Positions 3,150-11,166 of a stretch of 64,000 bases of DNA are shown in pieces. The stretch comes from Cystobacter fuscus (GTDB lineage Bacteria; Myxococcota; Myxococcia; Myxococcales; Myxococcaceae). The DNA is taken from positions 3,534,001-3,598,000 of the forward strand of contig NZ_CP022098.1 of assembly GCF_002305875.1 (NCBI RefSeq). Direction: 5' to 3'. The first letter of the stretch is position 1. Each line of letters opens with the position of its first letter. The position numbers and the translations under genes are program-made. Under the pieces are notes generated by a model. It ran no database searches. It saw nothing but the letters and a program-made list of their open reading frames with translations, and was not told the DNA's origin.

Positions 3150-5150
<2,001 letters not shown>

Positions 5151-5661: not shown

Positions 5662-6864
5662 CTACCCCTCGACGCGATCGAAGAGCTTCGCCAGGACGGA
5701 CTCGTAGAGCCGCAGTTGCCCGGTGACGATCTCGCCTCGCACCTTGTAGCCCGGGCGGAGCTCGAACGGGTGGGGCGCGGGCAGGTCCACGATGGCGAAG
5801 AATTCATTGGCATCGTTCGGTGGGGACACGTAGCGGACGCGTCCCTTGAGCACCCCGTACCGATGGAAATGATACGCGTCCACCTTGAGGTGGGCCCGCT
5901 GGCCCGTCAGCACTTGCTTCACCTCGTCTTGCGTCAGTTTGAACTTCGCATACAGCGCGCTCCCGTCCTCCAGTACGGGCGCCACCTCGACCAGGATTTC
6001 TCCCGCGAGGAGCCGGTCGCTGCTCGCCTTCGTATTGTGGACATAGCGGATGGTGCCGCGGATGTCCGCCCGCACCTCCTGCCTGGCCGCGAGTCGGCCG
6101 CGCAGCTCCTTCTCCTCGCGCTGCTTCTCCAACTCCCTGCGCAGCTTGTTGGCCCGCTCGAGGAGCGAGAGCCGCGCCGCCTCCGCGTCGAGGAGTTCCA
6201 GCTCGACGCGTGTGAGCTCATCGCGGTAGGTGCTCCCCAGCTTGAGCCCCGCCGCCTCCTGCTCCCGACGAAGCCTCAGCAGCTCGGCGGCGGCGCTCCT
6301 CGCCTCCAGGACGCCGCGGTAGTCCGCCTCGTGCTCCTCCTTCGAGAGCATCCCTCGCTCGTGCAGCCCGCGGCTGCGCTCCGCCTTCACCTCCGCCAAC
6401 GCCTGCTTCTCCCGGGCGAGCTCCAGTTGGCGGGAGAACGCGCCCAGGCTCTCGTGGGATTGGGCCTCCTCCACCCCGTGTCTCTGTCGCAGGATGGCGA
6501 GCTGGCGGCGGTGGCGCACGGCCCGCTCGCCCGCATTGTCGATCTGCTCCACCACCGTCCGCAGCTCTTCCTCCAGGGACAGGGAGTCCGCCTCCGCCTT
6601 TCGCGCGGCGGCGTCGACCTCCTCGTTGTCCAGGAGCATCAGGAGCTGGCCCTCCCGCACCTCGTCCCCCTCGCTGACGTACTGGGCCACCACCCGCACC
6701 TCGTACGGCGCCTTGTGGACGGAGCGGGGCCGGGAGGAGAGCACCTCCCCCTCGCGCACGCGCACGACGGCATTCACCTCCACCGTCGCGAAGAGCACCG
6801 CCCCGAGGCCGAAGCTCCCCACGAGCAGGGCGAACATTTCCCTTATGTAGCCGAGGCCGCCCAT
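5662..6864 (-). CDS. HlyD-family membrane fusion protein of a peptide exporter
   Basis: A 400-residue periplasmic adaptor. It has one membrane helix (about 9-30), a lipoyl-like half (VSEGDEVREGQLLMLLD, about 65-80), a long alpha-helical coiled-coil hairpin rich in Leu/Glu/Arg (about 85-260), then the second lipoyl half and beta-barrel (RADIRGTIRYV onward). Such proteins couple an inner-membrane ABC exporter to the outer membrane. ATG 6864 is supported by GGGAGGTG just upstream, and the start overlaps the end of the C39-ABC gene by 22 bases, so translation is probably coupled. It is the last gene of the RiPP-like operon. The outer-membrane TolC partner is not in the window. Confidence 0.92.
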   Translation of the reverse strand: MGGLGYIREMFALLVGSFGLGAVLFATVEVNAVVRVREGEVLSSRPRSVHKAPYEVRVVAQYVSEGDEVREGQLLMLLDNEEVDAAARKAEADSLSLEEELRTVVEQIDNAGERAVRHRRQLAILRQRHGVEEAQSHESLGAFSRQLELAREKQALAEVKAERSRGLHERGMLSKEEHEADYRGVLEARSAAAELLRLRREQEAAGLKLGSTYRDELTRVELELLDAEAARLSLLERANKLRRELEKQREEKELRGRLAARQEVRADIRGTIRYVHNTKASSDRLLAGEILVEVAPVLEDGSALYAKFKLTQDEVKQVLTGQRAHLKVDAYHFHRYGVLKGRVRYVSPPNDANEFFAIVDLPAPHPFELRPGYKVRGEIVTGQLRLYESVLAKLFDRVEG

Positions 6865-9332
6865 GACACCTCCCGGACCGGCGTGCCGTCCGCTGCCTCC
6901 TCTCCGCCCGCCTCCTGGATGCGCCCGCCGCGCAGCAGGACCTTGCGGCTCAGGTGCAGCCCCTCCACGGTCTCGTGCGAGATGAAGAGCATCGCCTGCT
7001 CGTCAATCTCCCCCAGCAGTCTGGCGATGGCGGCCTTCGACTCCTGGTCAATCCCCCGGAAGATCTCGTCGAAGATCAGCACGTCCGCCTCCGAGAGCAG
7101 GGCGCGCAGCACCAGCACCTTGCGCCGCTGGCCGGTGGAGAGGTTTCGCCCCCCTTCCTCGATGAGCCGCTCCAGGTAGTCCGGGTGCTGGACGATGCAG
7201 TCGTAGAAGCCGATTCGTTTGGCCAGCTCCACGATGCGCCGCGTGCTGTGGCGCCGGCCGAAGGTGATGTTGAAGCGCAGCGTCTCGTTGAAGAGCGAGT
7301 CCTCCGCCGAGACCAGCACCACCCGTCGCCGCAGCGCCCGCTCGCCGAGGAGTTCACGGGGGACGTCGTTGACCAGCACCGTCCCTCCGGAGGGTTGCTG
7401 GAGCCCGGCCAGCATGCGCACCAGGGTGGACTTCCCGCTCCCGTTGACCCCCATCAGGAGCACCTTGTCCCCCCTGCGCAGCGTCAGGTCCACCCCTTCC
7501 AGGACGCTCAGGCCCGAGGGGTAGCGGTAGGTGAGCCCCCGCGCCTCCAGCACCTCCACCCGCACGTCCTCCTCCGGCGCGCGCGAGGCACGGCTGGCTG
7601 CGCCCTCGCCGAAGTCGAAGTAGCGCCTCAGGATCACGAGGTTCTCCTGCAACGAGAGGTTCTCCTCGAGCAGCGTGGTGAAGGAGGAGAAGATCCTCGC
7701 CGACAGGGCGATGAAGGTGAGGAGCTGTCCGAGCGTGACGGCCTGGTTCGCGATCAGCCCCCGGGCGCACAGCAGGATGAGCAGCAGCGAGGCGGCCGTG
7801 GTGACGAGGGAGACGGCCGCGGTGCTGGCGAGGTCGAGCAGCTTCCCCTTGCGTTGCGTCTCCAGGTAGCGCCCCGTCTGGGTCCCCAACTGCGCGTTGA
7901 AGTGCGCCTCCAGGTTGAAGGCCCGGATGGGCTGCACTCCCTCCATGCCTTCCACCATGCAGGAGAGCAGGTCGGCCTTGTTCCGGAAGCGCTGGTTCTC
8001 CAGCCGCCGCAGCGCCGGCGTCACCGCCACGAGGAGGGCGCCCAGCAGCAGCAGGGTCACCAGCACGAGCGCGGCGGCCTGCCAGTTGAGCACGAACAGC
8101 ACGACGAGCGCGTTGAGCGAGACCCAGGCGTTGACGACGATGCGTGAGAAGTAGCGGGTGAAGAATCCCTTGAGCTTGAGGCTGTCGCTGATGCGCTCGA
8201 TCAGGTCTCCCCGCGTGAAGGAGCGCAGGTACTGGATGCTCCCCGTGAGCGTCCGCTCCCCGAAGCGCAGCAGGAAGTAGCGGTCCAGCTCCAGTCCCAG
8301 GTGCACCGCCACGTACCGGGTGTACACCCCCATGAGAATGTCAAACAGCTTGAAGAGTCCCAGGCCCAGGGTGAAGGTGGCCAGCACTTCGAAGTCGAAC
8401 TGGGGGATGACCTCGTCGACGAGCAACTGGTTGACGAAGACGGCGGTGTGCGTCGTCGCGGACGAGAGCACGGCGGCCAGGAGGAAGAGGTTCAAGATAC
8501 CGCGCAGCTCGCCGAGTTCCTTCAACAGCCGCCAGAGCGGATGGGCCGGCGTTTCGTCAGGCACCTGCCGCTCCGCCCTCGAGGCCGGCGGCCGCACCGC
8601 GAGCACCACGGGCACCGTGAGCACCCGCCTCGCTTCACTGCCTTCCACCGTGCGGAAGCGCTGGGGAACGGACGAGTGCTGCGGCTGGTGGATCAGATCG
8701 GCGAGGAAGGCCCGCTCGGCGGCCTCGTCCTTCAACCCGAAGTTCTGCTTCACGTGGCCGAAGTAGAGCAGCTTGTTGTACAGCGTCGCCACCTCGGCCT
8801 CGCTGGGAGGGGCTTCCAGTTGGAGTCCGTACCTCCCCAACTCCTCCATCACCTGGCCCCGGATGCGGCTGCGCCACAGTTCTTCCGTCAGGGGCACCTG
8901 GACGGTGTGCGCGCGCTGGACGAAGTCGGCCACCCTCCAGCGCTCCACCTGCCCGTGGGTGGGGTTGAGGATGCGCAGCCGCCCCCGCTCCACCCCGTCG
9001 ACCACCACGTAGTGCAGCAGTCCGGTGGCCTGCACGCGCACCGTGGCCAGACACGGGGCGAACTCGCTCAGCTTCCTCTCCAGCCCCGCGGCATCGTTGA
9101 CGTCCAGGGGTTGCGTGCGCACCCCGAAGCCGTGCTCCTGGAGAAACGCCTTGAGGTTGTCGAGGCGCAGCCCCTCGGCCTCCAGGGGCAGGGCGGCGGC
9201 GATGGCCTCGCGACTCATGGGGACCCCGAGCCGCTCGCAGAGCGTCTTCACCGCGCTGATTCCGCAGTCGTTGCTCCTCAGTTGCGGATCCACCTTCAGA
9301 CGGGCCTGGCGCATCCATCTCCCGAGGCTCAT
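6843..9332 (-). CDS. Peptidase C39-containing ABC exporter (leader-cleaving peptide transporter)
   Basis: An 829-residue protein. The N-terminal C39 peptidase carries Gln17, catalytic Cys23 (NDCGIS) and His107 (LLHYVVVDG). The third triad position, normally Asp before Pro, is Asn123 (ILNPTHG). A linker of about 150 residues precedes six membrane helices. The ATPase domain has Walker A GVNGSGKST, signature LSTGQ and Walker B LIFDEIFRGID. C39 exporters cut after a Gly-Gly motif and export the core peptide; the 51-residue precursor gene of this operon has such a motif. Start ATG 9332 forms an ATGA overlap with the stop of the kinase gene. An in-frame start 14 codons upstream lies inside the kinase gene and is less likely. 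Confidence 0.94.
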   Translation of the reverse strand: MSLGRWMRQARLKVDPQLRSNDCGISAVKTLCERLGVPMSREAIAAALPLEAEGLRLDNLKAFLQEHGFGVRTQPLDVNDAAGLERKLSEFAPCLATVRVQATGLLHYVVVDGVERGRLRILNPTHGQVERWRVADFVQRAHTVQVPLTEELWRSRIRGQVMEELGRYGLQLEAPPSEAEVATLYNKLLYFGHVKQNFGLKDEAAERAFLADLIHQPQHSSVPQRFRTVEGSEARRVLTVPVVLAVRPPASRAERQVPDETPAHPLWRLLKELGELRGILNLFLLAAVLSSATTHTAVFVNQLLVDEVIPQFDFEVLATFTLGLGLFKLFDILMGVYTRYVAVHLGLELDRYFLLRFGERTLTGSIQYLRSFTRGDLIERISDSLKLKGFFTRYFSRIVVNAWVSLNALVVLFVLNWQAAALVLVTLLLLGALLVAVTPALRRLENQRFRNKADLLSCMVEGMEGVQPIRAFNLEAHFNAQLGTQTGRYLETQRKGKLLDLASTAAVSLVTTAASLLLILLCARGLIANQAVTLGQLLTFIALSARIFSSFTTLLEENLSLQENLVILRRYFDFGEGAASRASRAPEEDVRVEVLEARGLTYRYPSGLSVLEGVDLTLRRGDKVLLMGVNGSGKSTLVRMLAGLQQPSGGTVLVNDVPRELLGERALRRRVVLVSAEDSLFNETLRFNITFGRRHSTRRIVELAKRIGFYDCIVQHPDYLERLIEEGGRNLSTGQRRKVLVLRALLSEADVLIFDEIFRGIDQESKAAIARLLGEIDEQAMLFISHETVEGLHLSRKVLLRGGRIQEAGGEEAADGTPVREVSWAASAT

Positions 9333-10579
9333 GGGCGGACGCGCTCCCTGGCCCGGACGGGCTGAGCGCCGCATTGCTGGGCCGCACGCCAGCCCTCCAG
9401 CATCTCCACGGCGTGAGGGAAGCGCTCCTCCGGGGCTTTGGCGAGGGCGCGCTCGATGACGTCTGCGAGGGCCGCTGGAATGCGCTCGCCCTCGGGAGTC
9501 CGCACCGCGCGGGAGGCGGGCTGGCTGCGAATGGCTTGCGCCAGACGCCTCCAGAGCACTCCCTTCGAGAAGGGCTCGTGGCCCGTGAGGATTTCGTGGA
9601 GCAACACCCCCAGCTGGAACACCTCCGAGCGCATGTCGCCCGGGCGGCTGCTGATGCTGAGCGAGCCAGGCTCGATGCGCTCGGGAGGCATGAAGGTGGG
9701 AAGGCCACCGTGGGGGACGGAGGCCTCCTCCGCCGCGTCGCCGCTGCGCCGCGAGAGGCCGAAGTCGATGAGCTTCACCCGGTGCTCGTCCGTCAGCATG
9801 AAGTTGCGCGAATGGACATCGCCGTGCAGGAAGCCGTGGCGGTGCAGGTGGGTGATCGCGGCGAGCGCCTCGGCGCCGATGCGCACTCGCTCCGGCAGGG
9901 ACAGGACGGTCTCCGCCATGGCCTGATGAATGGGAGTGCTGCCGGCGTGCTCCAGCGCGGCGTAGCAGGGCTCCCCGGGGTGGAAGGCCAGCAGGCGGCA
10001 GACGTTCTCATGGGGGGCCAGCCCGGCCATGAAGGAGAACTCCCGCTCGAAGAGCTTGCGCGCGCGACTTGCCCGGGGCCCCTGCGGGATGAAGACCTTG
10101 AGCACCACGGGCATCCCGGTGCCCACCTGCCGCGCGTGATGGAGCGCCACGTCTGGTTTCTCTACGATCAGCTCTCCGACGCGGTACTCACCGAGCACCT
10201 GCCCGGGGATGAACACCCAGGTGGACTCCTCCTGGAAGTCCGCCCCCGCGGAGCGCAGCAGGCCGGCGCGCCGCATGCGCTGGAAGAAGGTTCGTACCGT
10301 GGCGGCGATGGCCTCCGGGGGACACCCCGCCCGGCGCGCCAGTTCCTCCAGCGCCTCCGCCTCCGCCCGCGGAGTTCTGAACAGCTCCAGGTAGCTCTTG
10401 ATGACCCGGTTGACCAGGTAGCAGGACTGGTGAGCGCGCGTGTCCACCACCAGGAAGCGCTCGTCGACGTTTGCGCTGGTGCTCGCGTCCGAGCCACCGG
10501 GGAGACTCAAGCCTTCGTCTTCGCTCGAGGGGTAGAGTTCCAGATACTCCGGAAACACATAGAGAGGTTGCTGTTCCAT
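9329..10579 (-). CDS. Ser/Thr protein kinase with PqqD/RRE-like N-terminal domain (RiPP-modifying candidate)
   Basis: A 416-residue protein. Residues about 38-110 look like a PqqD-type winged helix, the fold RiPP enzymes use to bind leader peptides (strand FLVVDT, helix with LEELARRAG, helix FFQRMRRAGLL). Residues about 128-400 are a Hanks-type kinase with Lys161 (PVVLKVF), catalytic loop LHGDVHSRN (Asp254, Asn259) and DFG Asp272, so it should be active. The glycine-rich loop is degenerate and HRD is HGD. There is no membrane helix. It lies between the precursor gene (53-base gap containing a stem-loop) and the C39 exporter (ATGA overlap). I infer that it phosphorylates the Ser-rich core. A regulatory kinase is the alternative. 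Confidence 0.85.
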   Translation of the reverse strand: MEQQPLYVFPEYLELYPSSEDEGLSLPGGSDASTSANVDERFLVVDTRAHQSCYLVNRVIKSYLELFRTPRAEAEALEELARRAGCPPEAIAATVRTFFQRMRRAGLLRSAGADFQEESTWVFIPGQVLGEYRVGELIVEKPDVALHHARQVGTGMPVVLKVFIPQGPRASRARKLFEREFSFMAGLAPHENVCRLLAFHPGEPCYAALEHAGSTPIHQAMAETVLSLPERVRIGAEALAAITHLHRHGFLHGDVHSRNFMLTDEHRVKLIDFGLSRRSGDAAEEASVPHGGLPTFMPPERIEPGSLSISSRPGDMRSEVFQLGVLLHEILTGHEPFSKGVLWRRLAQAIRSQPASRAVRTPEGERIPAALADVIERALAKAPEERFPHAVEMLEGWRAAQQCGAQPVRARERVRP

Positions 10580-10605
10580 GACCGGGACAGGAGCGGGGTG
10601 CGCCG

Positions 10606-10629
10606 GGGCTGAGGCCTGTTCTTCAGCCC
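10606..10629 (-). terminator. Stem-loop between precursor and kinase genes, probable attenuator
   Basis: Arms 10606-10612 and 10623-10629 (GGGCTGA/TCAGCCC) pair perfectly around a 10-base loop, 4 bases after the precursor stop. There is no T-tract. Such hairpins after RiPP precursor genes often keep precursor mRNA in excess over enzyme mRNA. Confidence 0.55.
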
Positions 10630-10632
10630 GCT

Positions 10633-10788
10633 CTACTTATGGCCAGACGTCCAGGAGCAGCTCTTGCTTTTGCTCTTACTCTTGCTGGTCCCGCAGGAGT
10701 CGTGCGACTTTCCTCCCGCCTTGAACTCGAGGACGCGGTCCATCTGCTCTTCGGTCAGCTCATTGATGATGGTCGAAAGGTTCAGCAT
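10633..10788 (-). CDS. RiPP-like precursor peptide: Gly-Gly leader and Cys-(Ser-Lys) repeat core
   Basis: A 51-residue peptide beginning MLNLSTIINELTEEQMDR. The leader is acidic and helical and ends in Ala-Gly-Gly (24-26), the cleavage signal of C39 exporters. The predicted core (27-51) has 25 residues, with Cys32 and Cys44 flanking Gly-Thr and four Ser-Lys pairs; it holds nine Ser, two Thr and one Trp and ends in Gly-His-Lys. ATG 10788 is preceded by GGAGAG with a 6-base spacer; a longer open frame to 11046 lacks such a signal. It is the first gene of an operon with a kinase, C39-ABC exporter and HlyD protein. I recognise no named family. The product could be a phosphopeptide, a disulfide loop, or both. 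Confidence 0.8.
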   Translation of the reverse strand: MLNLSTIINELTEEQMDRVLEFKAGGKSHDSCGTSKSKSKSKSCSWTSGHK

Positions 10789-11166
10789 TGGAGTCTCTCC
10801 AGGAAAGAGATTGATGGTGAATGTTGCAGATGCTGATGCCGTAGCGCACCGCCCCCGATGCGACCCGCTCCGAATCGCATCGTGAAAGGACGCTAGCAGC
10901 AACCCACTCGAGGCAGAACTGCCCTCGCGGCTGGCCTTGACGGCGCATAGCATACAGAGGTTGTTCATCCACCTCGTGCCGCGTCGCGCCGTCGAAGGGG
11001 GCCTCGCGGTGACGAATGGGCAGCGCAACACTCCAAATCCATACACATCTACCGCTGTGCGCCAGGCCGGTGGAGAGGCCGTGCCGCCCCAGGGGGTACA
11101 TGCCCAGCCCGGGCGGCCCCTCCAGGATGAGGGCCGCGGGGGCGTGCGCTCCTGGAGCCGCGCTGG
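10789..11166. other. 378-base region upstream of the precursor gene
   Basis: It lies between the 3' end of the TPR gene and the precursor start, both on the minus strand, so it should hold the TPR terminator (listed) and the operon promoter. I found no convincing -35/-10 pair. The ribosome site GGAGAG of the precursor could fold into a tiny hairpin with CTCC. Open frames here overlap one another without start signals. Confidence 0.6.
11113..11137 (-). terminator. Hairpin after the TPR gene
   Basis: Perfect 7-base arms GCGGCCC (11113-11119) and GGGCCGC (11131-11137) with an 11-base loop, 30 bases past the TPR stop on the minus strand. It probably ends that transcript before the RiPP operon. 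Confidence 0.45.

Follow-up and report, generated by a model that had tools for sequence, protein, structure and literature searches.

A candidate pathway for exported phosphorylated peptides in Cystobacter fuscus: a short precursor, a Hanks-type kinase with an RRE-like N-terminus, a C39 exporter and HlyD

Relation to described phosphorylated peptides

Linear phosphorylated peptides belonging to the ribosomally synthesised and post-translationally modified peptides (RiPPs) are already in print. The Linear Polyphosphorylated Peptides (LPP) are linear phosphorylated RiPPs made by an HprK-like kinase together with a discrete RiPP recognition element (RRE) (PMC13381572), and phospeptin is made by a lanthipeptide dehydration domain carrying mutated elimination residues (PMC9259500). 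The present analysis concerns a cassette located on the minus strand, at positions 10788-5662, of a 64,000-nucleotide stretch of the Cystobacter fuscus genome (contig NZ_CP022098.1, positions 3,534,001 to 3,598,000), hereafter called the window. Four genes follow each other in tight order and encode a short precursor peptide, a Hanks-type kinase, a C39-ABC exporter and an HlyD-type protein. The reading that we consider probable is a RiPP-type pathway in which an RRE would dock the leader, the kinase would phosphorylate the core, the C39 domain would cut and a linear, phosphorylated, zwitterionic peptide would be exported. A preliminary description of this DNA had regarded the product as being of a kind not described; this is only partly right, as linear phosphorylated RiPPs have been published (PMC9259500, PMC13381572), the published systems using other kinase types.

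The cassette would share with the LPP a linear RiPP product, multiple phosphorylation as the primary modification and dependence on an RRE. The LPP, found in Bacillota, differ by their HprK-like kinase, discrete RRE, SpI-type leader peptidase and MsbA-like exporter; their leader carries a WxxP/YxxP motif and their phosphates are all borne by one Ser (S3) (PMC13381572). In the cassette, the kinase is of the Hanks type, nearest to PknB, and the RRE-like domain is fused to it. The WxxP/YxxP motif is absent, as neither Pro, Trp nor Tyr occurs in the leaders of the seven myxobacterial loci or in that of a related locus, L012, assigned to Bacteroidetes. Phospeptin is comparable in relying on a single maturase and in having a poly-phosphorylated linear end product; it differs by its dehydration-domain maturase, its phosphothreonine and its restriction to one marine species (PMC9259500). 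The 12 Pfam and 23 NCBIfam matches obtained for the kinase (E up to 1) include no LanM-type dehydration domain, lyase or cyclase.

Class III/IV lanthipeptide synthetases also employ a Ser/Thr-kinase-like domain in order to phosphorylate a leader-bound precursor, the leader binding as a helix on the kinase lobe, and differ by the presence of lyase and cyclase in the same enzyme, by their thioether rings and by the lack of an identifiable RRE (PMC10604976). Neither a lyase nor a cyclase domain is seen with the kinase of the cassette in its Pfam and NCBIfam matches. As for the Cys required in class III/IV cores, the L012 core has none, two cores have one and five have two or more.

Outside the bacteria, silaffin-1A of diatoms is reported to be phosphorylated on all its serines, and native silaffins self-assemble. 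Silaffins are likewise secreted, zwitterionic peptides of phosphoserine and lysine, served by a dedicated kinase, tpSTK1, which prefers basic substrates; they differ in being eukaryotic, in their heavily modified lysines and in taking a signal-peptide route (PMC4557024). Judged by analogy, the likeness is one of composition, not of descent. SR protein kinases are also described as acting on Ser-basic dipeptide repeats after docking; they belong to the world of eukaryotic splicing factors, with no RRE and no export.

The word kinase is absent from the main text of the RRE-Finder paper (PMC7470986), and no RRE fused to a Hanks-type kinase together with a C39 exporter came up in the open-access PMC literature, subscription literature being outside the scope of that search. 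The cassette looks like a third, independent enzyme design for linear phosphorylated RiPPs, its repeat core being reminiscent of silaffins. If so, bacteria have a further and very simple route to these products, in which leader recognition and core modification are combined in a single protein and a separate RRE is not needed.

The cassette and its proposed pathway

The tight coupling of the four genes reported in the preliminary description was confirmed. The precursor ATG is preceded by GGAG and a gap of 53 nt separates this gene from the kinase. The kinase stop and the exporter ATG share the sequence ATGA at 9332-9329, a context found in 7/7 myxobacterial loci, and the exporter therefore probably starts at 9332 rather than at 9374. 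The open reading frames (ORFs) of the exporter and HlyD overlap by 22 nt. As was also anticipated, homologous loci possess a precursor, which is present in 8/8 cases.

A short ORF starting with MLNL is located just upstream of the kinase in all seven kinase-bearing myxobacterial genomes. The leader is invariant at 16/25 positions in these loci, and a leader profile retrieves precisely the 7 kinase-bearing genomes among the 96 of the family (E 2.7e-18 to 5.8e-18, next best 0.27). A short precursor with a conserved leader and a variable core, placed beside enzyme genes as is typical of RiPPs, is thus seen in 8/8 loci. Ala-Gly or Gly-Gly closes the leader in all eight precursors. The precursor length of 51 residues given in the preliminary description was retained, and the 25-residue core placed after Ala-Gly-Gly was not: this tripeptide is Ala-Gly-Gly, Ala-Gly-Trp or Gly-Gly-Trp depending on the homologue, and the shared C39 site is therefore predicted after residue 25, leaving a core of 26 residues.

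Counted from Ala-Gly, the core of the window contains 9 Ser, 2 Thr, 2 Cys and four Ser-Lys pairs, in agreement with the earlier counts for Ser, Cys and the pairs. (Ser-Lys)4 is the sole run of three or more in the six frames of the window. The eight cores are 23-39 residues long and include 6-14 Ser/Thr, 6-13 Lys/Arg, 0-8 His and 0-4 Cys, with a single acidic residue in all of them together, in the core of the window. The cores change in length without loss of the reading frame; Ser is drawn from its two codon families and Lys from its two codons. What these sequences have in common is the type of core (Ser/Thr beside Lys/His/Arg), not its letters or length. The expectation that the core would be conserved alongside the kinase is consequently borne out for its Ser/Thr-basic character, which persists even in another phylum, and fails for its letters and its length. 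The disulfide loop suggested earlier was ruled out as a general feature by the core Cys counts, which are 2, 2, 1, 2, 4, 3, 1 and 0 in the eight loci. A Ser-Cys-Ser-Trp stretch near the C-terminus is common to 5/7 myxobacterial cores and may matter.

The N-terminus of the kinase matches Pfam PqqD at residues 53-108 (E 0.0012, 19.6 bits). An AlphaFold2 model of residues 1-127, based on 8 sequences, reached a mean predicted local distance difference test (pLDDT) of 67.9 and a predicted TM-score (pTM) of 0.56; residues 41-110 lie in blocks at pLDDT 74-87, and the model displays strands followed by three helices. The full-length model was poor (pLDDT 51, pTM 0.36) and was not used. The first Foldseek row is TbiB1 (E 6.2e-3, probability 1.00, TM by target 0.72) and the fourth is PqqD 5sxy (E 4.2e-2, probability 1.00, TM 0.70), followed by ThcOx, MccB and MibB. 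VIA-align returned TbiB1 with Z 10.2 (root mean square deviation 2.9 over 87), TigE with Z 9.2, lasso B1 with Z 9.0 (2.9 over 85) and PqqD with Z 8.6 (2.4 over 86). We take the top rows to be RRE proteins, in part from their titles. An RRE is likely at this end of the modelled kinase, and both fold comparisons agree with the RRE-like N-terminus put forward in the preliminary description.

The kinase domain itself matches Pfam Pkinase (E 1.4e-26), its best solved relatives being PknB. Residues Lys161, Glu180, Asp254, Asn259 and Asp272 are invariant in 8/8 homologues; Lys161, Asp254 and Asp272, already noted as intact, also line up with PknB, and the catalytic loop is HGDxH, as compared with HRDxK in PknB. 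The ratio of non-synonymous to synonymous substitutions (dN/dS) is 0.32-0.49 in six pairs and the gene is therefore under purifying selection.

In the exporter, Peptidase_C39 covers residues 27-143 of the long ORF. Its Gln, Cys and His, which together with an Asp we take to be the catalytic set, are invariant in five aligned exporter proteins. The HlyD gene is found in 7/7 myxobacterial loci and in part in L012. The C39 part of the exporter is separated from the membrane part by a region (8541-8855 of the window) that is conserved across phyla with no Pfam match reported; this region may be a site of contact with the kinase or with the peptide.

L012 is carried by a contig titled as a Bacteroidetes metagenome-assembled genome (MAG) and is the fifth locus confirmed in a scan of genome contigs with the kinase of the window, in which 5 loci were confirmed out of 35 candidate stretches. 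The gene order is that of the window: a kinase (27% identity), then a C39-ABC exporter (34%), then the start of HlyD, only the first part of which precedes the contig end (26% over 186 aa, E 2.6e-13). Upstream of the kinase, an ORF of 45 aa provides the leader MLTLEKIMSELKVSSVNEVVGG and the core RHGKTTKTKKTRTHKHKSHVNYY, which is of a Thr-Lys/His type behind a Gly-Gly leader. When scored for similarity to the opening 12 residues of the leaders from the seven myxobacterial loci, this ORF ranks first with 26.0 among 468 possible starts (frames of at least 20 aa, both strands); the runner-up, at 19.6, lies inside the kinase gene. It also has the highest density of Ser/Thr-basic pairs among the 334 short ORFs of the locus, longer ORFs being counted over their first 60 residues only.

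The RiPP-type pathway is favored on several grounds. All four genes are kept side by side in 7/7 myxobacterial loci despite otherwise unrelated flanks, and leader and kinase strictly co-occur across 96 genomes. The gene order recurs in the Bacteroidetes MAG with its own top-ranking Gly-Gly precursor. The RRE fold, the invariant catalytic residues and the richness of 8/8 cores in Ser/Thr and basic residues point the same way, as does the dN of the kinase relative to the gene of the window (0.077-0.127 in six pairs), to be set against that of alaS in the same pairs (0.066-0.152). The proposed pathway can be briefly summarized as follows. The N-terminal RRE would bind the leader and keep the flexible core near the active site, where the Hanks-type kinase would phosphorylate several Ser (Thr in the Bacteroidetes version). 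The C39 domain would then cleave after Ala-Gly or Gly-Gly at residue 25 and, as expected from the families, the exporter and HlyD would deliver the core out of the cell through an outer-membrane channel encoded outside the cassette. The exported core would be a linear peptide bearing several phosphates, a zwitterionic polyampholyte with phosphoserine in alternation with lysine or histidine. As a guess, it could act extracellularly, for example on metals or mineral surfaces or in the assembly of a matrix or coat.

Weight of the evidence and alternative explanations

A number of observations weigh against this pathway. Phosphorylation, leader binding and export are each predicted from families, sequences and fold. 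The PqqD match remains under its Pfam cut-off of 23.4 bits, Foldseek yields nothing at E <=0.001 for the kinase N-terminus, and the VIA-align rows include proteins not recognised as RRE (8hkr Z 8.1, PKMT2 7.8, GdmN 7.7). When the PDB was searched by sequence with the RRE profile, the hits were confined to designed proteins and nanobodies (best E 0.032) and included no RRE. The first 120 codons of the kinase have a dN/dS of 0.35-0.64, to be compared with the whole-gene values given above, and the RRE part is therefore not specially constrained. In 7/7 myxobacterial exporters, Asn stands where the solved PCAT exporter has Asp, a residue kept in the Bacteroidetes one; in related proteases, Asp can be substituted by Asn. 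The rarity of the family (7 of 195 Myxococcota genomes) is a further point, and the cross-phylum case stands on one MAG contig. Finally, the density of Ser/Thr-[Lys/Arg/His] pairs is unremarkable, other ORFs among the 643 of the window reaching 5-6 pairs per 26 residues and the core 5. Since other frames match or exceed the core, pair density was dropped as evidence by itself.

A wider proposal can be made, namely a new RiPP class present in at least two phyla, producing silaffin-like peptides by means of an RRE-docked Hanks kinase that repeatedly phosphorylates a core of dipeptide repeats, and exporting a zwitterionic (phosphoSer-Lys/His)n polyampholyte as a material, which would bind metals or minerals, adhere or assemble coats, and not as an antibiotic. 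This extension is tentative and, taken as a whole, rather unlikely. The pathway, if true, would offer a compact test bed for docking-driven multisite phosphorylation and a tool for the phosphorylation of repeat peptides; it might also be the bacterial equivalent of the Ser/Lys phosphopeptides of biomineralising eukaryotes.

Hanks-type kinases are mostly regulators, and a Gly-Gly peptide, a C39 exporter and HlyD alone constitute the usual set for unmodified export. The peptide could accordingly be a cationic bacteriocin or signal, unmodified or transiently phosphorylated, with a regulatory kinase: the RRE would sense the leader and the kinase would target the exporter or another protein, or phosphate would neutralise charge inside the producer. 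However, the constant trait of the fast-changing core, also across phyla, is Ser/Thr beside a basic residue, which suits a kinase substrate, and known RREs bring the peptide to the enzyme (PMC7470986). We judge this explanation improbable.

A lanthipeptide-like route, in which the kinase would only activate Ser/Thr while a lyase and perhaps a cyclase encoded elsewhere made dehydro residues and rings, appears slightly more improbable still. The genome contains six LanC-like places, all outside the 64-kb window, and a full-length class IV lanthipeptide synthetase-like protein (G000:C1:7234365-7236839, profile 4-847) situated about 3.7 Mb from the cassette and matched with 496.5 bits, below the cut-off of 650. 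The kinase domain also weakly matches the kinase part of LanL, with 70.6 bits against the same cut-off, but higher scores are obtained with NCBIfam PASTA-kinase models (85.7 bits). A thioether ring pair is out of reach for the 3/8 cores that have 0 or 1 Cys, among them the Bacteroidetes core, which lacks Cys and could form no such ring at all, and class II-V lanthipeptide enzymes are reported as having no identifiable RRE (PMC10604976). Pfam and NCBIfam gave no lyase or cyclase family for the kinase and HlyD, nor, among the matches listed, for the exporter; none was found in the six flanking proteins either, the statement for the MoeB-like protein again applying to the matches listed. The absence of both activities noted in the preliminary description is thereby upheld over cassette and neighbours.

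The last alternative, a chance repeat-rich frame beside three large genes exporting something else, draws on the pair density common in other window frames and is close to refuted by the 16/25 conserved leader positions in seven loci, the frame kept through core length changes, the strict leader-kinase co-occurrence and the matching ORF of the distant locus.

Distribution, history and surroundings of the cassette

The kinase is found in 7/96 genomes of the family, including that of the window, at 78-100% identity. A profile of the exporter N-terminus detects 7/195 Myxococcota genomes and the RRE profile 7/193, the seven being the same. Among named organisms, the locus occurs in Archangium lansinium, A. 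violaceum, Hyalangium versicolor and Pyxidicoccus fallax. When the window is compared with each of the 6 other loci, similarity at the DNA level extends over 5.3-5.4 kb at 86-91%; it spans the cassette and 93-258 bases before the precursor and stops at the HlyD stop. No flanking gene is shared at the corresponding place among the 7 loci (about 4-13 kb compared on each side), and matches outside the cassette are weak, between kinase-like proteins or single ORFs of the window and G063.

At E 1e-30, the kinase is missing from 3/4 genomes of the window's genus. In sister genome G032, the matches to window positions 2985 and 11165 are separated by about 3.9 kb of different sequence. In sister genome G033 (4.7 kb contig), short decayed pieces of the exporter end and HlyD remain beside a TPR gene, at about 3308-3666 of L047, and the site matches the upstream flank of the window. 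Because of these remnants we read the sequences as pointing to an older cassette, lost in sister genomes. The dS of the cassette (kinase 0.17-0.32, exporter 0.13-0.24) is lower than that of alaS (0.19-0.41) and gyrB (0.34-0.44) in 6/6 pairs, the narrowest margin, against alaS, being 0.188 against 0.190 in one pair; the ranking of cassette identities roughly tracks kinship. A mobile cassette is suggested by the differing flanks and low dS, and old inheritance by the kinship ranking and the G033 remnants.

A plasmid search with the kinase matched 466 records, all below 60% identity; a Methylocystis plasmid kinase adjoins nitrate-assimilation genes, with no C39 exporter annotated nearby. The C39 part of the Bacteroidetes exporter matches 13 Staphylococcus plasmids (about 30-32% over half of the query). 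Viral contigs gave 367 pattern matches, with no relative among them.

The coordinates of the features are collected in Table 1. The dyad upstream of the precursor is spaced by N10 instead of N11 in the G022 locus; it is a single site in the genome (12.35 Mb, one contig; control 0) and possibly acts as an operator or a 5' hairpin.

Table 1. Features of the cassette and its surroundings (window coordinates)
Feature	Position	Strand	Remarks
Precursor gene, 51 aa	10633..10788	-	ORF; leader residues 1-25 = 10788-10714, core residues 26-51 = 10713-10636
Kinase, 416 aa	9329..10579	-	RRE/PqqD-like domain ~residues 1-110; Hanks-type kinase domain ~125-400
C39 peptidase-ABC exporter	6843..9332	-	probable start 9332; longer ORF from 9374; Pfam Peptidase_C39, ABC_membrane, ABC_tran
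HlyD-type membrane fusion protein, 400 aa	5662..6864	-	Pfam HlyD_3 E 9.7e-9; TIGR01843 E 7.3e-23, below cut-off
Dyad GATGCGA-N11-TCGCATC, upstream of precursor	10857..10881	.	aligned in 7/7 myxobacterial loci
C39 Asp-to-Asn position	~8950-9000		within exporter C39 domain
Six scanned neighbours			TPR protein, DUF3626 protein, unassigned protein, family-18 glycosyl hydrolase, MoeB-like, iron-sulphur proteins

Downstream of the cassette, at 3150-5150 of the window, the family-18 glycosyl hydrolase (chitinase-like) carries CBM5/12 and fibronectin type III domains. In three sister genomes, only relatives of its C-terminal part are present, at 44-48%, and the downstream side of the site therefore varies too.

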